Part shown: positions 4,995 through 52,103 of the stretch, one piece after another | How the letters are laid out: every line of letters begins with the position of its first letter | How positions within the stretch are numbered: the stretch's first letter is position 1 | Source of the DNA: Streptomyces venezuelae | GTDB lineage: Bacteria > Actinomycetota > Actinomycetes > Streptomycetales > Streptomycetaceae | Assembly (NCBI RefSeq): GCF_008642315.1 | Contig: NZ_CP029192.1 | Location: 310,001 to 374,000 of the forward strand | Length of the DNA: 64,000 nucleotides | Direction: 5' to 3' | Made by a program: the position numbers and the translations under genes | Notes under the pieces: generated by a model | What the model saw: only the letters and a program-made list of their open reading frames with translations | Databases searched by the model: none | What the model was told of the DNA's origin: nothing

Positions 4995-5713
4995 CCCCGC
5001 CCGGGGAGACCTCGCGAACCGTGCGCAAGGCCGGTCTGGTCGCGGGAGCGGGGATCCTGGTCATGGCCCCGTTGGCGGTCTTCGCCAATTTCGGCGTGCT
5101 GGACAACCTGATCACCGAGGATGACGCGACACGCACCGCCCGGGACATCCGTCATTCCGAGGCGCTTTTCCGCTTCGGCGCGGTGGCCCTGTTCCTGGTC
5201 GCTGTCCTGGACGTGGTGGTGGCCTGGGCGCTGATGGTCTTCTTCCAGCCTGCGCACAAGGGAATCGCGACGCTCGCGGCCTGGTTCAGGCTCGCCTACG
5301 CGGGAGTGCTCCTCGTCGCCGTCACCCAGCTCGTTGGGGCGTTGCCCCCGGCCAAGAACGCAGAATCGCTGGAGGCGTACAGCGCGGATCAGCTGGATGC
5401 CGAAGCGCTCATGCGCATTGATGCCTTCTACGACGTCTGGGACGCCGGGCTCATATTCTTCGGAGTCCATCTGCTGTTGCTGGGGTTCCTCGCCTTCCAG
5501 TCGGGCTATGTACCTAGAGTGCTGGGAGTCCTGCTGGCTGCCGCGGGGCTCGGCTATCTCGCAGACAGCTTCGGTGCGTCCCTCTCCTCTGGATATTCGG
5601 TCGAGGCAGCCGTGTTCACCGGTGTGGGTGAGCTTCTGCTTATGATCTGGCTCTTGACCGCAGGCAGGAACGTCGGTTCACGGCTGCCGATACAGGCCGA
5701 GAGGATGCCTTGA
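4991..5713 (+). CDS. DUF4386-type integral membrane protein, second copy of a coupled pair
   Basis: This 240-residue protein starts at ATG 4991, overlapping the stop of the preceding gene as ATGA; a possible upstream start at 4949 would lie inside that gene. Hydrophobic segments occur at roughly residues 15-35, 65-90, 100-120, 150-170, 180-200 and 210-230. The loop after helix 1 (NLITEDDATRTARDIR) and the VWDAGLIFFGVHLLLLGF segment are typical of DUF4386. It is clearly related to, but longer than, its partner. Function is unknown; the coupling suggests a two-subunit membrane unit. Confidence 0.85.
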   Translation: MTPPGETSRTVRKAGLVAGAGILVMAPLAVFANFGVLDNLITEDDATRTARDIRHSEALFRFGAVALFLVAVLDVVVAWALMVFFQPAHKGIATLAAWFRLAYAGVLLVAVTQLVGALPPAKNAESLEAYSADQLDAEALMRIDAFYDVWDAGLIFFGVHLLLLGFLAFQSGYVPRVLGVLLAAAGLGYLADSFGASLSSGYSVEAAVFTGVGELLLMIWLLTAGRNVGSRLPIQAERMP

Positions 5714-6140
5714 GAGGGGGGCTCTGTGCTCTCCGTTGTGGTCGCGGTAGTGATCGTTTGCCGATCTGCGTAACACTGAGTCCACGCGTGTTGCGCCCGT
5801 CCAGGCGGTAGGTGGTGTTCTGTCGCGGCTTCCCGCCGCCAGTGGAGGGACTCGTCTGGCCCCTCTTGCTTTATGGCCCCGCAGGATGCCAGTCGGTGCG
5901 CAGACGCACCTCGGGTGGCACTGGAGCGCCGACTGCCGCGAGGAGCCCCATCGAAGCGGGGCCACTTGCCGCGTCGAAGTTCAAGACAGCGCCGGAGAAC
6001 ACGGCGAGGCCGAGGTACGCAGTGCTGCCCGGAGCTGGACTGCAGCCGGAAGACGGGCTGCTGCTGGCTGCACCGCTGCCCGACAGTCATGGCGAGAGCG
6101 GCGGCGAGAGCGCGTGCTGGCGTTTCGGCGGTGCCCGGCC

Positions 6141-43662: not shown

Positions 43663-44673
43663 TCAGGCCGCGCTCTTCTTGCCGCCGCGGCGTCCCGCAC
43701 GGGACAGTGCGTCGATGAGGTCGTCCCTGGTCATCTTGGACCGGCCCTCGATGTTCTGTTCCGTGGCGCGTTGGTAGAGCTCGGACTTGCTCAGCTCCTT
43801 CAGGTCGCTCTTGCTCGGCTCCTTCGAGGCGCTCTTGCTCGCCGCTTTCGTGTTCGTTCTCTTTGCGGCCTTGCCGCCCTTGCCGCTCTTCCCGCCCCGA
43901 GCGCGGTCGAGGCTGCCCTGCAGGACTTCCATGAGGTCGACGACGTTGGTGGCCTCCGGCGCCTCCTCGGCGGCCGTGATCTCCTGGCCCTCCGCCTTCG
44001 CGCGCACCAGCTCACGCACCTTCTCCTGATAGGTGTCGTGGTACTTGGCGGGCTCCCACGGAGCGTCCAGTGCGTCGATCAGCTGGATCGCCATGTCCCG
44101 CTCCTTGCCCTTGACCGCCCGGGCGGACGGCACTTCGGGAAGTTCCCGGCCCGGGTCGCGGACCTCGTCCGCCCAGTGCAGGGTCTGCAGCACGAGCACC
44201 TTCTCGTCGGCCCGCAGCGCGGTCAGGTACTGCTTGCCGCGCATCACGAACGTCGCGATGCCCGCCTTGCCGACCTCCGCGAGCGCCTCCCTCAGCAGCC
44301 CGTACACCTTGATGTGGTCCTTGCCGCGGGGCGCGATGTAGTAGGTGCGGTCGAAGTAGACCGGGTCGATCGCGTCCAGGTCCACGAAGTCGCTGATGTC
44401 GATGGTCCGGGACCGGCCGGGGGCGACCTCGTCCAGCTCGTCGGGCTCGATGACGACGTACTCGCCCTCGGCCGCCTCGTACCCCTTGACGATGTCCTCG
44501 GTCTGCACCTCCTTCCCGGTGCGTTCGTTGACGCGCCGGTTGCGGATGCGGTCGGAGGTGCCGCGCTGGAGCTGGTGGAAGTGGACCGTGTGGTTCTCGA
44601 CGGCGGTGTACAGACCCACCGGCACGCTGACCAGCCCGAAGGTGATCACGCCGGTCCAGATCGCGCGTGCCAT
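43663..44673 (-). CDS. ku: Ku protein (non-homologous end joining)
   Basis: This 336-residue protein has the Ku core over residues ~1-250 ([77 protein letters not shown]). A Lys/Ser/Ala-rich tail ([19 protein letters not shown]) runs into a SAP-like helix ([20 protein letters not shown]), an extended basic end often seen in Streptomyces Ku that increases DNA binding. It binds broken ends and recruits an ATP-dependent ligase; one lies 2.3 kb away. Confidence 0.95.
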
Positions 44674-44827
44674 GTACGCCCACTTCCGTCGTCAGCCCTA
44701 CTGGTCCTGATGGCCTCTGCTGGGCCCCCGCTGCCCACGCTGGCATCGCAGGGCGCACCGCGCCCGCTGGAGGCGGCCGAGCGGCGGAGACCCCGGGCAC
44801 GACGGCGACCGAGCCGGGGCGGCACGG

Positions 44828-45808
44828 CTAATCGAGCTCCTTACGGAGGCGTTCCGACTCCTCACCGGCCTCCTGCGCCGCTCGTTCGGCCTCCGCCGTC
44901 GCGGTCGCCGCCGCCCGGCTCCGCTTCTCGGCCTCTCTCTGCTCCCGCTCGGTGTCCTTCAGCTCCCGCTGGGCGCGCCGGAGCTCCTCGCGTGCCCGCT
45001 CCAGCTCCGTCTCGGCGTCGGACACCTGTCGGCGGGCCTGGTCGTGCCGGTCGTGCGCCTGTCGGAGCGAGGCGTCGGCGTCATCCTGTGCGGAGCGCAG
45101 CTCTCCGAGCTGCCGGTCCGCCGCTTCGGCCGCCTCGCGGGCCTCTCGGGCGCGCCTCTCCTGCTTCTGGCGGCGGCGCTCGGCGAGCTCGTCCTTCCGC
45201 CCCTTGGGCCCCGCGCTCTCACGCGGCGCCCGCTTCGCCGCCGGGGCCGCGGCCCGCGCCTTCGATGCCGGGTTCGAGCCCGAGCCCGCGCCGGACGCGG
45301 ACGGGAAGTCCGACGGCGGGGTGAGCGTGCTTTCGAGGCGGCCGGTCGCCCATTGGTCCGCCGCGTCCTCGTCCGCGAGTACCGCGCGCAGGGTGGATGC
45401 GACGTCCTGCTGTGCCGCGTCCGACAACCGGTGACCGGCGTCCCTGGCGAGGGTGGCGGCCTGCCGGGTCAGGGCGGAGACGACGCTGGTGCGCTGCTTG
45501 GACAGTTCCTTGATCTCGGCGGCGTCGAGGGTCCGGTACGCCTTGCGCAGTTCCCGCCCGAGGTCCAGGAACCGGCGGCTCTCCGCGGGCTGCTCGTGCA
45601 GCAGCAGGTTCGCCGCCCACGCCGCGAGGGTGGGGCGGCGGGCGGCACGGATCCGTCGGGCGTCCTCCGCGCGTCCGCCCGTCCTGGCCCGCGCGGCGAG
45701 TTCCTCGCGGCGGGAGACGAACCGGGGCGGCGCCGTGGCGTAGAGCTCGTCCAGGAGACTCTCCACGTCGCGTTCGTCGCCGCTGTCCCGTCCGCCCTTG
45801 CGCCGCAT
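44828..45808 (-). CDS. Coiled-coil protein, unknown
   Basis: This 326-residue protein starts at ATG 45808. The N-terminal half is helical (SLLDELYATAPPRFVSRREE, then RPTLAAWAANLLLHEQPAE), and a Pro/Ser/Ala linker precedes a long coiled coil (about 205-326: heptad stretches of ERRRQKQERRAREAREAAEA and onward). No membrane segment, no enzyme motif. Position upstream of ku on the same strand (155-bp gap) suggests, but does not show, a shared role in DNA repair. Confidence 0.82.
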   Translation of the reverse strand: MRRKGGRDSGDERDVESLLDELYATAPPRFVSRREELAARARTGGRAEDARRIRAARRPTLAAWAANLLLHEQPAESRRFLDLGRELRKAYRTLDAAEIKELSKQRTSVVSALTRQAATLARDAGHRLSDAAQQDVASTLRAVLADEDAADQWATGRLESTLTPPSDFPSASGAGSGSNPASKARAAAPAAKRAPRESAGPKGRKDELAERRRQKQERRAREAREAAEAADRQLGELRSAQDDADASLRQAHDRHDQARRQVSDAETELERAREELRRAQRELKDTEREQREAEKRSRAAATATAEAERAAQEAGEESERLRKELD

Positions 45809-45871
45809 CAGCTACAGCGTCCCCCGGGGCCGGCCGCCGCGCACGTCGAGCGGTCGGCTCGGGCGGACGTG

Positions 45872-46327
45872 TCAGAGGTCGAAGCCGAGGGCCCGGAGGC
45901 GGTCCCACGTCGGGTTGCGTTCGGTCGGTCCTTCGGGTGCGTGGCGGGCGTTCCGGAACTCGCGTGGTTCGCACACCATGCCCGGCAGCGTGCGACCGGT
46001 CACCTCACCCCAGGGGTTGTCCGAGCCGCTCGTCTCCATGGCGGCGCACGGCAGCAGGCAGAACGACCAGCCGTTCCCGGCGTCACCGATCCGCCCGATG
46101 TTCGGGTCGTCGTACCGGTGTGTCGGCCAGGCCTGCTCGATCCGCTCGATGGTGGCCGGGTCGAGGACCGGTGAGTCCTCGGGCGCCCCGAGCCGTACCG
46201 CCAACTCCCTGGGGCTCACGCCCTGGCCGAAGACCAGGCCGAAGTATTCGGGACCGTCGCCGTCGGCCTCGGTCCACGCCAATCCGCCCCTGGGCGGGAG
46301 TGACCATGTGCCAGACCGCCACCCCAT
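45872..46327 (-). CDS. Unknown protein, possibly DUF6461-like
   Basis: Read from ATG 46327 (a TTG at 46351 would add eight residues), this is a 151-residue protein. The beginning (WTEADGDGPEYFGLVFGQGV, then SPRELAVRLGAPED) resembles the start of DUF6461-type Streptomyces proteins with a G.(S/T)P.E...R.GA motif; the rest (GDAGNGWSFCLLPCAAMETS) fits less well. Cytoplasmic and unassigned. Confidence 0.6.
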   Translation of the reverse strand: MGWRSGTWSLPPRGGLAWTEADGDGPEYFGLVFGQGVSPRELAVRLGAPEDSPVLDPATIERIEQAWPTHRYDDPNIGRIGDAGNGWSFCLLPCAAMETSGSDNPWGEVTGRTLPGMVCEPREFRNARHAPEGPTERNPTWDRLRALGFDL

Positions 46328-46387
46328 GGGGCGACTACTGTACGGACACAACTTGTTGCCCTCCGTGGCGACTTGAGGAGGAATCCT

Positions 46388-46954
46388 GTGTCATCGCCCT
46401 GCGATCCCGAACACGCCCCCGTCGGCGATGTGGGCACGGCGCTCATGATGATCGACTCGCGGCTCAAGACCATTCACGCGGGCAGGACCGAGGTCGACCC
46501 CGAACAGCAGGAGATGGTCCGGCAGTTCGCGGCGTCACTGGGTCCGAGAGGAGCCGACGACCTGCTCAACGGCGCCTGCACGCTCATCTACATGTTCATG
46601 TCGTGGCTGCGGAAGGCGCATGAGGATCACGGCAAGGACGTCATCGAGTACGTGGTGCCCACGCTCGTGGCGACGATGCGCATGATGCCGAAGAGCATTC
46701 CGTCCGAGGCGATCCCGACCATGGCCGGTCTGGTCATCGCCGCGGGCACCGGCCTGAGCCCCAACCTCTGGCGCCAGCAGTACGGGGACTGGACCGAGGC
46801 CGAGATGAACCCCCTGGAAGCGACGGCCTTCCTGCTCGCGGAGCACATCAACCGCATCACCGACGACCCCGACTTCGCCACCCGGATGGTCGCCGAAACC
46901 CTGGCGGGCGCGGACGAGGCGGCCGGTGCGAACGACGGGATCGACGAGGACTAG
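46388..46954 (+). CDS. Conserved-looking helical protein, unknown
   Basis: This 188-residue protein starts at GTG 46388 with GAGGAGG seven bases upstream. It is helical and Met-rich (DVGTALMMIDSRLKTIHAG, LIYMFMSWLRKAHEDHGKDV, LVATMRMMPKSIPSEAIPTM), with an acidic end (GANDGIDED). No signal peptide. The stop codon is overlapped by a 10-bp-arm palindrome. Not recognised. Confidence 0.75.
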   Translation: MSSPCDPEHAPVGDVGTALMMIDSRLKTIHAGRTEVDPEQQEMVRQFAASLGPRGADDLLNGACTLIYMFMSWLRKAHEDHGKDVIEYVVPTLVATMRMMPKSIPSEAIPTMAGLVIAAGTGLSPNLWRQQYGDWTEAEMNPLEATAFLLAEHINRITDDPDFATRMVAETLAGADEAAGANDGIDED

Positions 46955-46973
46955 AGCCTGTGTCACAGGCTCT
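46953..46973. terminator. Near-perfect 21-bp palindrome overlapping a stop codon
   Basis: AGAGCCTGTG, T, CACAGGCTCT: 10-bp arms and a single central base. It begins inside the TAG stop of the plus-strand gene and lies 46 bp past the stop of the convergent ligase gene. It could be a bidirectional terminator, though a one-base loop is short, or a protein-binding site. Confidence 0.5.
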
Positions 46974-47018
46974 CAGTCGGGAGGGCGGGCCCCGCGTCGG
47001 CCGTCGGCCTCCGGTGCG

Positions 47019-47972
47019 TCACACCTCGGGGGCCAGGTCCGGGCGCAACCGGTGCCACACGGGGTGACGCAGCAGACCGGCCCGCGTGCGGGTGGTGTAC
47101 CGGACCTCGGCGACCAGCCGCGGCAGCACCCACCTCGCGCCCGGCACCGCGGGCGCGGGCGTGAAGGGGCAGTCCTCGACGGCGGCGACATCCAACAGGC
47201 GCGCGATGTCGGCCCGCTCGCGTTCGTTCCACCCCGTGCCCACGCTCCCGCGGTAGACCAGGACCCCGTCCACGTACTCGCCCACGAGCACCGCTCCCGG
47301 CAGTCCTCCGAGCCGCCCCTGCCCGGGCATCCAGCCGCCGACGACGACATCCGCGGTCTGTACGTTCCTGACCTTGATCCAGGCCGGGGAGCGCCGGCCT
47401 GGCTCGTACACGGAGTCGAGCCGCTTCAGCACGAGCCCCTCCAGGCCCTGGGACCGGGCGAGTTCGAGCGCCTGGCGGCAGTGCCCCGTCACCGCCGTCG
47501 GGACCGACCAGTCCGGGCCGCCCGCGACGAGATCCTTCAGGGTGTCGCGCCGCCGGGTGTAGGGCAGTCGGGTCAGGGGCCTGCCGCCCAGGTGGAGGAC
47601 GTCGAAGAGGATCAGGTGGGCCGGGGCCTGCGCGGCGAGGCGGGCCGCCTTCGCCGGAGAGCCTGACAGACCCATGCGCGGCTGGAGACGTTCGAAGCTC
47701 GAACGGCCCGCCTCGTCGAGTACGACGATCTCCCCGTCCAGCACGGCCGGCGCATCACCCAACGCGCCGGCCAGGCCCCGTAGTTCCGGGTACGCGGCGG
47801 TGATGTCCGCGCCCGAGCGGGACCGGATGACCATGGTGCGGTCGCCGGGCAGGTACACCAGGGCCCGCTGCCCGTCGTGTTTGGTCTCCGTGCTCCACAA
47901 GTGCTCGTCGGCCGGGGTCGGCAGTGCCCCCGGGGTGGCGAGCATGGGGGCGATGCGTGGCAGGGCGGTCAT
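47019..47972 (-). CDS. ATP-dependent DNA ligase (LigC/LigD-ligase type)
   Basis: This 317-residue protein starts at ATG 47972, overlapping the preceding gene stop. It has adenylation motif I TETKHDGQRALVY (Lys31), motif III LDGEIVVL, motif IV LEGLVLKRLDS and motif V WIKVR, then an OB domain ending near SVGTGWNERERADIARLL and RPDLAPEV. There is no polymerase or nuclease part; it equals stand-alone LigC or the ligase part of LigD. Ku lies nearby, so a role in end joining is plausible. It is also the last gene of a five-gene overlapping operon. Confidence 0.9.
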   Translation of the reverse strand: MTALPRIAPMLATPGALPTPADEHLWSTETKHDGQRALVYLPGDRTMVIRSRSGADITAAYPELRGLAGALGDAPAVLDGEIVVLDEAGRSSFERLQPRMGLSGSPAKAARLAAQAPAHLILFDVLHLGGRPLTRLPYTRRRDTLKDLVAGGPDWSVPTAVTGHCRQALELARSQGLEGLVLKRLDSVYEPGRRSPAWIKVRNVQTADVVVGGWMPGQGRLGGLPGAVLVGEYVDGVLVYRGSVGTGWNERERADIARLLDVAAVEDCPFTPAPAVPGARWVLPRLVAEVRYTTRTRAGLLRHPVWHRLRPDLAPEV

Positions 47973-49102
47973 GAGCCCGCACCCTCGCCCGGGTCGCCGT
48001 GTTCGGAGGGCTGGGCGAGCGCCCACAGTTCGAGGTAGGCCCGCTGGATGAACGCGCCGGACGGCGTGGGGCCGGTGTTGGCCAAGGCGGCCAGCGCCAC
48101 GTCCGCCTGTGGGCTGAAGCCCGCGAAGGCGGTGAAGCCTCGGGTGCCTCCGGAGTGGTGGTAGAGGTCCCGGTCGGAACGGGGTCTGATGTTCCAGACG
48201 AGGGCGATACGCCTGCCGGTGCGGGGCAGGGCGATGCGGGGGCGGGTGACGTCGGCGAGGGCGGTGCGCAACGTGCGGGGGACGGTGGCGGGTGCCGAGG
48301 CCGGATCGCGGAGAGCGTCGAGCGTGGTCAGGAGGTCGCGTGCGGTCGACCGGACCATGCCTGCCGCGGGCAGGGCGGACATCCGCCAGGCCGGGCGTGC
48401 CCTGCCGTGCCAGTAGCCGGTGGCCTGGGGCTGGTCGATGGTGGCGGTGGTCCGCGTGAGGCCGAGCGGTCGCAGGACGCGTTCGGCGAGCAGCGGGGCG
48501 AAGTCTCCCCCGCCGACGGCGCGGGCGAGCAGGTCTCCGAGGAGGCCGACGCCGAAGTTGGAGTAGCGCACGCGGGTGCCGGGGGCGGCGTGGGGCCGGG
48601 TGCGGGGCAGGGCGCGACGCAGGGACGTGGTGTCGTAGCCCTCGTACGGGTTGCTGTACCAGGCCGGTGCGGCCGTGCGCAGGAAGCCGGGTGGCAGCCG
48701 GGGCAGGCCGGAGGTGTGGGTGGCCAGGTGGAGGAGGGTGATGGGCGCGCCGCGCGAGCGGGGGGCGGCGGCGCGCGGCAGGAAGCGGGTGATCGGGTCG
48801 TCGTACGCGACCTCGCCGCGCGCCACCGTCTCGGCCAGGAGGAGCGCGGTGAAGGTCTTGGTGAGGGAGCCGATCTCGAAGCGGGTGTCGGGGTCGGCGG
48901 GTGCGCCGCCTTCGAGCGCGGTGGCGCCTGTGGTCAACAGGGCGTGGTCCGGGCCCCGTCGTACGGCGAGGGTGACCGCGCTCGCGCCGGGCGCGGTGGC
49001 GCGCAGGGCGTCGAGCATGCGTACCGCCCAAGGGGGCCCACTCGCCGCCTCCCCTGTTTCGCTCCGATCAGTGGTCTGCGCCAGGCCCCACGGGCTCTTC
49101 AC
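47969..49102 (-). CDS. Beta-lactamase-fold serine hydrolase
   Basis: Read from GTG 49102, which overlaps the stop of the upstream gene (GTGA), this is 377 residues; an internal ATG at residue 29 is the alternative. Active-site motifs are Ser79-x-x-Lys82 (EIGSLTKTFTALLL), a YSN triad (RVRYSNFGVG) and HSGGTRG. This is class-C/esterase-type architecture without a signal peptide, so a cytoplasmic hydrolase or peptidase-like role is likely rather than antibiotic resistance. It lies third from the end of an operon with a short peptide and unknown proteins, so it may process a peptide. Confidence 0.85.
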   Translation of the reverse strand: MKSPWGLAQTTDRSETGEAASGPPWAVRMLDALRATAPGASAVTLAVRRGPDHALLTTGATALEGGAPADPDTRFEIGSLTKTFTALLLAETVARGEVAYDDPITRFLPRAAAPRSRGAPITLLHLATHTSGLPRLPPGFLRTAAPAWYSNPYEGYDTTSLRRALPRTRPHAAPGTRVRYSNFGVGLLGDLLARAVGGGDFAPLLAERVLRPLGLTRTTATIDQPQATGYWHGRARPAWRMSALPAAGMVRSTARDLLTTLDALRDPASAPATVPRTLRTALADVTRPRIALPRTGRRIALVWNIRPRSDRDLYHHSGGTRGFTAFAGFSPQADVALAALANTGPTPSGAFIQRAYLELWALAQPSEHGDPGEGAGS

Positions 49103-50022
49103 CCCGCCCCGCCCAGCGTCCGCGACACCGCCAGCGTCCCGGCGACGGCGGCGACGACAGCGGTGTGCTGGTGGTCGGTGAACCGCTGCTCGGGGTCGTC
49201 GTCCACGGGCTCCCCGTCGCGCGGCATCAGCCCGTCGGCATGCTGGGCCGCGGCGAACCGCTCCCAGTCCGCGGGCTCGCAGTACGGCTCCTCCAGACAG
49301 CAGCCCACGATCATCAGCTCGCCCACCAGGTCCCACTGCTCGATCTCGGCCCAGATGTCGATCCAGACCGGCAGCCAGGTGGTCACGTAGGCGGCGAGAC
49401 CTGCGGGCAGACCGGAGGGCGTGCCGCCCCAGTCGGTGAGATGGAAGACGGTGTGGGTGAGGCAGTAGCCGGTCATCCAGTCGATGAGCCAGGGCTCCGG
49501 TGTCGCGCCCAGCCAGGTGGCGCGGGTCAACGTGCCCCAGTCGTACGCGCGTTCCCCACGGTCCAGGCCGACGACGCGGGCCGCGTTCGCCACCGCGAGG
49601 CGACGGTTGGGAAGGTACTCGGAACCGCGGACCGAGCGCAGCGCGCCGGTGTGGCCGGCCAGCCGCTCCAGGGGTTCGTGGCGCAGGCCGCAGCGGGCGA
49701 ACGGCGCGTACGTCTCCAGCGGGTCGGTCATCATCGGGTAGCGCAGCAGCCGTTCGTACAGCATGTCTCCCCGGCCGAACTGTTCCCAGCAGAAGTCCAG
49801 GAGCTCGCTCGCCTTGCGCTGCTCGGTACTGCCCGCGACCGACTCCCGCAGCACGAGGGAGGCGGCCACGGCGCTCTCCCCGAGGGGTTTGTAGACGCTG
49901 TTGGGGTCGCCGAGGTCGGCGGTGGTGTCGGGGGGCAGTGCGCCGCGCTCGCGGTGTGTGTGGAGCCAGGCAAGGGCCTGCGCGCTCACCTCGTGGGCGG
50001 TGCGCGTCACGGGCGTGGTCAT
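49099..50022 (-). CDS. Helical protein of unknown function (DUF6895-like)
   Basis: This 307-residue protein starts at ATG 50022, overlapping the stop of the gene before it (ATGA). It is rich in Trp/Leu/Glu helices, e.g. EQWDLVGELMIVGCCLEEPY, TPEPWLIDWMTGYCLTHTVF and HLTDWGGTPSGLPAGLAAYV. I recall this as DUF6895-type by its general form, but that is weak. Potential metal or catalytic residues (His, Cys, Asp) are conserved-looking in TVFHLTDWGG and CCLEEPYCEP. No signal peptide. It is the third gene of the five-gene operon. Confidence 0.75.
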   Translation of the reverse strand: MTTPVTRTAHEVSAQALAWLHTHRERGALPPDTTADLGDPNSVYKPLGESAVAASLVLRESVAGSTEQRKASELLDFCWEQFGRGDMLYERLLRYPMMTDPLETYAPFARCGLRHEPLERLAGHTGALRSVRGSEYLPNRRLAVANAARVVGLDRGERAYDWGTLTRATWLGATPEPWLIDWMTGYCLTHTVFHLTDWGGTPSGLPAGLAAYVTTWLPVWIDIWAEIEQWDLVGELMIVGCCLEEPYCEPADWERFAAAQHADGLMPRDGEPVDDDPEQRFTDHQHTAVVAAVAGTLAVSRTLGGAG

Positions 50023-50795
50023 GCGTCCTCCAGTCCGAGCAGCCGCCGGGCGATCGCGACGTCGAGAGCGAGCCGCGGCCCGGCGCCGTACAGGCCGAGG
50101 TGGTCGACGAGAGGCGCCGGATCGAGGGGCAGGGGCACGCCTTCGGTGTGCAGCAGGACGAGCCAGCGCGCGATGCGGGCGGCAGTGGGGAAGTCACGGC
50201 GGAGCACGGCGCGGGTGGCGCCTCGGGCGAGAGCGAGCGGCGCGGCGCCGGTGCGGGCAGAGAAATGGACGGGGCCGTCGAGACCGGGGAGTGCGAGCGG
50301 TGAGAGCTGGCCCATACGGACGGACCAGCGCTGCCAGTCGGTGTCGGCAAGCCCGCCGGACGGGCGGCCGTCGAGGACCGGAGAGCCCGCGGGCCGTGGC
50401 GCGAGAAGCTCGCTGTCCGGCTGCCCGTCGGCCTCCTTGGTGAACCGGGCCAGCAGAGTCGCCGTCGCCCAGTCGCGCCACGCCACGAGCCACGGTTCGG
50501 CGGCTCCGTCGGGCGGCGGGGCCGGCGTGCTCACCGCGGGCGGGAACACCGCGAAGGACTGGGTGACGGCGGCGGCGTCCTGGGGGTGGAAGACCGCGTC
50601 GCCCAGCAGGAAGGGGGCGAAGCCGTCGGCTCCGACGACGCGGACGGCGGCCAGTGCGGCCTTGGGGTCCTCGGCGCGTTCGACGTGTTCCGCGAACATG
50701 GCGGTGCCCCCGACGCCACGCAGGGCGTCGAGAGCACGGAGAGCCAGGTCAGCCGCTGACGCGGCGTACGCGGTCTGCGACTGATCGGGGCTCAC
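50019..50795 (-). CDS. Unknown protein of the peptide-headed operon
   Basis: This 258-residue protein starts at GTG 50795, overlapping the peptide gene stop (GTGA). The N-terminus is helical (SAADLALRALDALRGVGGTA), followed by FAPFLLGDAVFHPQDAAAV, TQSFAVFPPAVSTPAPPPDG and WLVAWRDWATATLLARFTK. Near the end it has DHLGLYGAGPRLALDVAIAR. No membrane segment, no cofactor motif. Not recognised; its position suggests binding or modifying the peptide. Confidence 0.75.
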   Translation of the reverse strand: MSPDQSQTAYAASAADLALRALDALRGVGGTAMFAEHVERAEDPKAALAAVRVVGADGFAPFLLGDAVFHPQDAAAVTQSFAVFPPAVSTPAPPPDGAAEPWLVAWRDWATATLLARFTKEADGQPDSELLAPRPAGSPVLDGRPSGGLADTDWQRWSVRMGQLSPLALPGLDGPVHFSARTGAAPLALARGATRAVLRRDFPTAARIARWLVLLHTEGVPLPLDPAPLVDHLGLYGAGPRLALDVAIARRLLGLEDA

Positions 50796-50974
50796 TTGCC
50801 TTTCGGCTCCTTCGGCTGCTTCGGCGAGAGAAGGATCAGCGCGAGGAGAACGCCCTCCGCTCGCGGCGAGTAGATCGGCGCGTCGCTCAGAATCGCCTCT
50901 GGCTCCACCATGGCGGTACTGAGCGCCTCGGTGTCCGTCGGAGTGAAAAGAAGCGGTGTGTGCTGAGCAAGCAT
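50792..50974 (-). CDS. 60-residue peptide heading a five-gene operon
   Basis: The gene starts at ATG 50974 behind GAGGAGGCACTG, one of the strongest ribosome binding sites in the window. The peptide begins MLAQHTPLLFTPTDTEALST, has an acidic or neutral middle (VEPEAILSDAPIYSPRAEG) and ends in a hydrophobic stretch plus a basic tail (VLLALILLSPKQPKEPKGK). It has no Cys and no typical signal peptide. Its start signal and its overlap with the next gene argue that it is translated in high amounts relative to the others. It could be a modified-peptide precursor, a signalling peptide or a small antitoxin-like protein; none is proven. Confidence 0.7.
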   Translation of the reverse strand: MLAQHTPLLFTPTDTEALSTAMVEPEAILSDAPIYSPRAEGVLLALILLSPKQPKEPKGK

Positions 50975-50996
50975 CAGTGCCTCCTCATAGATACGT

Positions 50997-51016
50997 CGTC
51001 ACCAAGTCCGGTGACG
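50997..51016. promoter_or_regulatory. Inverted repeat just upstream of the peptide gene
   Basis: CGTCACC and GGTGACG (7-bp perfect arms, 6-bp spacer) lie 10 bp upstream of the ribosome binding site of the peptide gene. It may be an operator or a leader hairpin. Confidence 0.6.
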
Positions 51017-51105
51017 CCCACCCTCGGACCAGTCTAAGGCCATTAGTCCCATATGTCTGTTTTACGCACCGTGACGCCCTCTGGCGACCGCAACTCCCCG
51101 TCTTC

Positions 51106-51978
51106 TCACGGGAGTTCGTCCAGCAGCGCCAGGAAAGCGGCGGCCGGAGGCGACGGCGTGAGGCGGCTCCAGACGAGGCGCTCCACCCGTACCGGCCCGT
51201 CGGTGACCGGTACGCACCGCACCCCGTGCAGTTCCGCGGCGAACGGCGCCGGCAGCAGGGCCACGCCGAGGCCGTGGCGGACCATCCGGGACATGAGCTC
51301 GACGCCGGACACCTCGAAGGCGACCTCACGCGGCACCCCTGCGGCCACGAACGCCTCGTCCGACTGAGAACGCGCGGCACTGCCCTCGGCGAAGTCCACG
51401 AACGTCTCGTCCGCGAGGCGGTGCAGATCGACCTTCTCCTCCGCGGCCAGCGGGTGGTCCGGCGCGACCACGGCGACGTGCTCCCCGTGAGCGAGTTCGC
51501 GGTCCCGGACCCCTTGGGGCCGGAAACCGGGCTGTACGCCGAGGAACGCCGCGTCGACCACACCCTCGCGCACCTGCTCCACGAGCCGTTCGCTGGAACC
51601 GGCCCGCAAAGTGATCCGTACTTGCGGGTAGCGCAGCCGGTAGCCCTTCAGCACGGCTGGCAGGTCGACGGCCGCCACGGTGGGAATCGACCCCACGGTC
51701 AGCTTCCCCCGCACCTCACCGGTGGCCGCCGCCACCTCGGCGCGGGCCCGCTCGGCCGCTTCCAGGGCCTCCCGCGCGGCGGGCAGGAACGCCTCTCCCG
51801 CGCTGGTCAGCCACACCTTGCGGCTGGTCCGCTCGAACAGCCGGGCGCCCAGCTCCTTCTCCAGCTTCGCCACTTGGTGGCTCAGCGCGGACTGGACGAC
51901 GTGGCATTTCGCCGCCGCACGCGTGAAGCTCGCGGTCTCCGCCACCGCGAGGACGTACCGCATCTGCTGAAGGTCCAT
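51106..51978 (-). CDS. LysR-family transcriptional regulator
   Basis: Read from ATG 51978 (MDLQQMRYVLAVAETASFTR), this is 290 residues. The N-terminal HTH (AAAKCHVVQSALSHQVAKLE, LGARLFERTSRKVWLT) and the periplasmic-binding-like effector domain (GKLTVGSIPTVAAVDLPAVL, AFLGVQPGFRPQGV) are normal. A perfect palindrome starts at its start codon. It diverges from a VOC-family gene and lies 131 bp upstream of the peptide operon on the same strand; either could be its target. Confidence 0.9.
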   Translation of the reverse strand: MDLQQMRYVLAVAETASFTRAAAKCHVVQSALSHQVAKLEKELGARLFERTSRKVWLTSAGEAFLPAAREALEAAERARAEVAAATGEVRGKLTVGSIPTVAAVDLPAVLKGYRLRYPQVRITLRAGSSERLVEQVREGVVDAAFLGVQPGFRPQGVRDRELAHGEHVAVVAPDHPLAAEEKVDLHRLADETFVDFAEGSAARSQSDEAFVAAGVPREVAFEVSGVELMSRMVRHGLGVALLPAPFAAELHGVRCVPVTDGPVRVERLVWSRLTPSPPAAAFLALLDELP

Positions 51979-52005
51979 CGATCCATCGTGAAACACGATG
52001 GATCG
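51979..52005. promoter_or_regulatory. Perfect palindrome, probable LysR operator
   Basis: CGATCCATCGTG, AAA, CACGATGGATCG: 12-bp perfect arms starting one base upstream of the LysR start codon. A further half site CGATGGATCA lies at 52,027. This fits autoregulation and control of the divergent VOC gene. Confidence 0.75.
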
Positions 52006-52103
52006 GATGACAAGCATGTGTTGGACCGATGGATCACCGGTCGGACATCCTGAAGTCAGCCCGGAAGACAGTCCGGAAACCCTCTCGACCCACGGAGACA
52101 GCC

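Follow-up and report, generated by a model that had tools for sequence, protein, structure and literature searches.

The window analysed here is a 64,000-nucleotide stretch covering 310-374 kb of the 8.94-Mb single-contig genome of Streptomyces venezuelae. It carries, on the minus strand, genes for a small peptide, a helical protein designated U1, a member of the DUF6895 family, a serine hydrolase with the beta-lactamase/penicillin-binding protein (PBP) fold, and an ATP-dependent DNA ligase (Table 1). The first-pass annotation had described these as five genes, each joined to the next by a 4-nucleotide GTGA or ATGA overlap. Open reading frames (ORFs) were found for all five, and the overlap was present in the sequence at each of the four junctions. 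The start codons of the hydrolase and the ligase were chosen within longer mechanical ORFs. Comparison with related loci demonstrated that the conserved unit consists of four genes, those of the peptide, U1, the DUF6895 protein, and the hydrolase.

Table 1. Genes of the locus, with positions in the window
Gene product	Position	Strand	Basis and features
Putative precursor peptide, 60 residues	50792-50974	minus	ORF; GGAGG-like sequence upstream; leader EPEA..SDAP, Leu-rich stretch, SPKQPKEPKGK tail
U1, 258 residues, all-helical, outside known families; candidate for binding or modifying the precursor	50019-50795	minus	ORF
DUF6895 protein, 307 residues, (alpha/alpha) barrel; candidate peptide epimerase	49099-50022	minus	ORF and PF21836
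Serine hydrolase, beta-lactamase/PBP fold (S12-type), 377 residues from GTG; candidate release or cyclising enzyme	47969-49102	minus	PF00144
ATP-dependent DNA ligase of the non-homologous end joining (NHEJ) type, 317 residues from ATG; local passenger outside the cassette	47019-47972	minus	TIGR02779

The DUF6895 protein and U1 of the window were searched for in 392 genomes of the genus. DUF6895 matches of any strength occurred in 168 genomes (152 at E < 1e-40 and 16 weak), and U1 was present in 153. U1 and a strong DUF6895 match were found together in 151 genomes, DUF6895 alone in one, U1 alone in two, and neither in 238 (Fisher's p = 1e-106, uncorrected for shared descent). The exceptions were genome G271, with a close DUF6895 protein and no U1, genome G305 and locus L178, with U1 and no DUF6895 protein, all three of which may reflect decay or another use, and genome G206, in which U1 was accompanied by only a weak DUF6895 match. 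DUF6895 was found in 32 of 394 genomes and 12 of 137 genera in a wider, class-level sample.

Fifty-five loci were gathered by similarity to the DUF6895 protein, 30 of which form a close group (L001-L005 and L031-L055, L001 being the window's own). U1, the DUF6895 protein, and the hydrolase were all present in the 30 close loci, and a related peptide was encoded directly upstream of U1 in 29 of them, L047 being the one in which none was found. In a second group, about 40% identical, a tandem pair of DUF6895 copies precedes the hydrolase, and a third group occurs in other genera and in some Streptomyces. In addition, GTDB genomes were scanned with a U1 alignment, and the best 80 of 156 relatives were taken as named loci; most are from Streptomyces, and the others from Kitasatospora, Pseudonocardia, Pseudonocardiales, Actinoplanes, Actinomadura, and one record labelled Streptosporangium. 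Gene order, determined from gene calls by a purpose-made codon model and from profiles, was U1-DUF6895-hydrolase in 62 and U1-DUF6895-DUF6895-hydrolase in 13, giving the full order in 75 of the 80. Three loci had U1-DUF6895 without the hydrolase, and two had U1 alone, in one of which (L214) the stretch stops at U1. The peptide and both helical proteins are kept as a set, in the same order and with the hydrolase, a pattern that the first-pass annotation had expected of a genuine system. When all called genes of at least 80 residues were clustered, every further family was confined to 14 or fewer of the 80 named loci, and the cassette therefore has no constant partner among exporters, regulators, or immunity genes. 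The LysR gene upstream of the cassette was rejected as a conserved regulator on the same count.

Among the named loci, the four bases closing the upstream stop were ATGA or GTGA in 70 of the 78 U1/DUF6895 junctions and in 70 of the 75 DUF6895/hydrolase junctions, these counts reading the upstream-stop bases and not each downstream start. Because these junctions recur in relatives and a close ligase was found at only one (L063) of 120 larger loci, the four-gene unit is real and the ligase local. An overlap of the peptide gene with an open U1 frame was seen in only 35 of 74 relatives, the two genes being spaced apart in the others. For the peptide, the fixed stoichiometry that had been presumed from the tight coupling in the window is therefore not supported by the overlap.

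The peptide had no Pfam or NCBIfam match at E <= 1. A motif scan detected a peptide preceding U1 in 74 of the 80 named loci, and two more (L204 and L216) were recognised by eye; of the remaining misses (L178, L194, L211, and L229), the L229 peptide is doubtful and none was seen in the other three. In addition to the real peptide, the motif scan picked up some spurious ORFs, and a simpler ORF scan often gave unrelated ORFs. The consensus of 57 distinct group-1 peptides is MLxQ...LMxEPEAxVSDAPxYAPEAAGxLLLLLLLSPKEPKEP. Glu27 and Pro34 are invariant in this set and were not imposed by the motif filter; Ser51, Pro52, and Pro55 are also invariant, partly because the filter required them. The second-group peptides differ and end in LLLSPPTPRPKKG or a near variant, and those of the third group have a longer tail (for example SANP..EPIED..GVVQNLACARAF). 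Profile comparisons between the groups were weak (probability 42, 24.5, and 0.7), the common plan being an acidic leader motif, a hydrophobic Leu-rich stretch, a Ser, Ala, or Thr residue, and a Pro-containing, usually Pro-rich, tail. Since the tail Ser is replaced by Ala in L061 and by Thr in L204, its side chain is not essential, and this residue is unlikely to be the modified one. Codon counts against close relatives indicated modest constraint on the peptide. In L062, whose cassette has two DUF6895 genes, U1 is preceded by a tandem pair of near-identical precursor genes (5237-5814). A conserved short precursor gene beside its enzymes, which marks ribosomally synthesised and post-translationally modified peptide (RiPP) pathways, was thus found both in the close relatives (29 of 30) and in the named loci (74 of 80).

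The first-pass annotation had regarded both proteins following the peptide as unknown. This holds for U1, which matched no Pfam or NCBIfam family at E <= 1; it is predicted to be all-helical (AlphaFold2 predicted local distance difference test score, 91.4) and has 17 invariant positions, among them many Arg residues, one Asp, and one Trp. The U1 of the window shares 98% identity with a protein named from Streptomyces venezuelae. The 307-residue protein, on the other hand, is a full-length DUF6895 member (PF21836; E = 1.5e-84; 284 bits, with a curated cut-off of 23.8; positions 2-288 of the 289-position profile). The (alpha/alpha) barrel fold of this family is common to terpene cyclases, lyases, and hydrolases, and also to epimerases. 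In our searches of openly licensed PubMed Central (PMC) papers, DUF6895 turned up only in the reference list of a 2026 review (PMC13352647), through an article whose title names a lasso-peptide epimerase of the DUF6895 family (Shi et al., ACS Catal. 2026, 16, 1757). The DUF6895 protein of the window likely makes a D-residue in the peptide.

DUF6895 genes were also seen in other settings. L119 (4268-12708) contains a 39-residue ORF ending in GCIINNSSDIS, a DUF6895 gene, a radical S-adenosylmethionine (SAM) gene, and a second DUF6895 gene, together with a weak glycosyltransferase match, a major facilitator superfamily-like transporter, and a prolyl oligopeptidase (Pfam). L121 also has a 39-residue ORF and two DUF6895 genes, as judged from gene lengths and the DUF6895 profile only, and this type of locus is likely another peptide cluster. 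In L112 (5567-13936), DUF6895 is accompanied by genes for a methyltransferase, a P450-like product, a large ATP-binding cassette (ABC) protein, and a LanC-like protein; where the retrieved sequence ends, a fragment gave a weak match, below the cut-off, to the C-terminal part of lantibiotic dehydratases. In L120 (6185-7819), DUF6895 forms the N-terminal part of a 544-residue protein, the rest of which gave only a weak winged-helix hint, and no partners of the radical-SAM or lanthipeptide type were found beside this fusion. These loci indicate that DUF6895 is often, but not always, near peptide-modifying genes.

The hydrolase matched PF00144 (E = 9e-58) over residues 42-350 of 377 as its sole domain, and the protein ends soon after. 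The motifs S79xxK82, Y180-S-N182, and H316-x-G318 are kept in all 29 aligned relatives. No evident signal peptide or strong N-terminal hydrophobic segment was detected in the hydrolase of the window. The S12 superfamily, to which it belongs, includes D-specific peptidases. PBP-type cyclases, which have the same fold, join a D-residue at the C terminus to an L-residue at the N terminus, the former being reported as obligate for SurE (PMC11735501).

The first-pass annotation knew of no pathway that this mixture of genes would fit. The assignment of the 307-residue protein to DUF6895, a family with a reported peptide epimerase, points instead to RiPP maturation, and the locus is best read as a RiPP-like cassette, small and widely conserved, that lacks the core enzymes of lasso peptides and lanthipeptides. 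On balance we favour, with moderate confidence, a pathway in which the DUF6895 protein converts at least one L-residue of the peptide to the D-form and the hydrolase then cuts or cyclises the chain at that point. The analysis shows how the genes are ordered and co-occur, which motifs the peptides share, to which families the proteins belong, that the hydrolase motifs are intact, and what folds are predicted; the epimerisation, the role of U1, the cut site, the cyclisation, and the product are inferred, as follows. The acidic leader (E..EPEA..SDAP in group 1) would be bound by U1, which has invariant Arg residues, and the DUF6895 protein, via residues such as His190, Asp231, Glu235, and His286, would epimerise inside the Leu-rich stretch or at its end. 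Using Ser79, Lys82, Tyr180, and His316, the hydrolase would then attack beside the D-residue, just before the Ser/Thr/Ala-Pro with which the tail begins, and release of the Pro-rich tail would leave a Leu-rich peptide that contains D-residues and is either linear or cyclised head to tail. Epimerisation followed by release is the simplest reading because each conserved gene is given a task. A more specific proposal, which we put forward only tentatively and hold to be rather less probable than even, is that the cassette defines a new RiPP class, in which DUF6895 guided by U1 writes D-residues into the Leu-rich core and a D-selective hydrolase reads them as the site of cutting or head-to-tail cyclisation.

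The cassette was compared with known systems. Neither a lasso B (RiPP recognition element/transglutaminase-like) or C (asparagine-synthetase-like) protein nor a lanthipeptide dehydratase, LanC, or LanM/LanKC was found by Pfam and NCBIfam among the ten proteins encoded at 43663-52017. PoyD and YydG are radical-SAM peptide epimerases, sometimes acting on hydrophobic residues; they epimerise ribosomal peptides, whereas the cassette has no radical-SAM protein. MslH, the epimerase of the MS-271 lasso-peptide pathway, has a metallophosphatase-type fold unrelated to DUF6895. According to PMC10406935, MslH is a stand-alone, metal-dependent enzyme that makes a D-residue in a ribosomal peptide, as is proposed here, although the cassette differs in having no lasso machinery among its ten annotated proteins. 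The enzyme named in the title of Shi et al. shares its Pfam family with the 307-residue protein, but the cassette has U1 and a beta-lactamase-fold hydrolase as constant partners and often two DUF6895 copies. SurE-type PBP thioesterases are beta-lactamase/PBP-fold serine enzymes that act on peptides with a C-terminal D-residue; as described in PMC11735501, they serve non-ribosomal peptide synthetase (NRPS) lines and carry a lipocalin domain (mentioned for PenA). In contrast, the hydrolase of the window is a single PF00144 domain without a lipocalin domain, and no NRPS was found among its ten neighbours. Our literature searches, in the same PMC collection, found no description of a peptide-U1-DUF6895-hydrolase cassette.

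If the RiPP assignment is correct, 151 of the 392 sampled genomes of the genus carry a small pathway of four genes that makes an undescribed peptide, U1 is a new family of RiPP partner, and the cassette supplies an epimerase with a partner enzyme possibly acting on D-containing ribosomal peptides, a pair that would be useful for the genetic production of D-containing or cyclic peptides. If epimerisation is followed by release, about four of every ten sampled Streptomyces genomes would hold a ribosomal equivalent of the PBP-type cyclisation of NRPS products. Because the cassette is so small, co-expression offers a direct test.

Among the alternatives, the one that survives best, though we rate it as unlikely, is a RiPP-type pathway with other chemistry, in which U1 or DUF6895 cross-links, dehydrogenates, or cyclises the peptide, while the hydrolase serves as an ordinary peptidase, removing the leader or tail, or as an ordinary esterase. 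The genomic evidence for it equals that for the epimerase reading, and both the fold of U1, which is unknown, with its 17 invariant positions, and the occurrence of the DUF6895 fold in terpene cyclases, lyases, and hydrolases would suit it; nevertheless, the only function found named for DUF6895, in the title cited above, is that of an epimerase. Slightly less probable is a role of the peptide as a small partner, scaffold, or regulator, with the DUF6895 protein and the hydrolase acting on a small molecule or a cell-wall fragment. Co-conservation of the peptide with the enzymes, its modest variation within close groups, which resembles that of a partner more than that of a hypervariable core, the action of most DUF6895-like (alpha/alpha) barrels on sugars or terpenes, and the lack of a conserved exporter among the 80 named loci are consistent with such a role. 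However, the three peptide groups hold only a loose plan while the enzymes are clearly homologous, which fits substrates better, and the tandem peptide copies in L062 and the recurrence of DUF6895 with other peptide-modifying enzymes argue in the same direction. Class C beta-lactamases such as AmpC have the motifs SxxK, YxN, and KTG. A function of the hydrolase in beta-lactam resistance or in the cell wall, within an ordinary accessory operon whose genes share no pathway, is very improbable, because, although class C enzymes are its closest solved sequences and SxxK and YSN are present, the hydrolase scored 106.4 bits against a class C model with a cut-off of 415, has HxG as its third motif in 29 of 29 relatives, lacks a strong N-terminal hydrophobic segment, and stays beside DUF6895 in 75 of 80 loci.

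The ligase scored 226.9 bits against TIGR02779, just under the cut-off of 227.75. A Ku gene (TIGR02772, 324 bits) is located at 43663-44673, about 2.3 kb from the ligase (43663-47972 in all), so that the pairing of Ku with a nearby NHEJ-type ligase is seen, and concerns the ligase only. The interval between them encodes a 326-residue coiled-coil-like protein and contains two ORFs that belong to no family (45872-46351, minus strand, and 46373-46954, plus strand). Among 120 larger loci, a close ligase follows the hydrolase in only one other, L063 (genome G105), where it is 91% identical and joined by a 4-nucleotide ATGA overlap. The ligase was therefore rejected as part of the system, in agreement with the earlier suggestion that it may be an associated passenger. 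In L124, a ligase-like fragment lies on the opposite strand.
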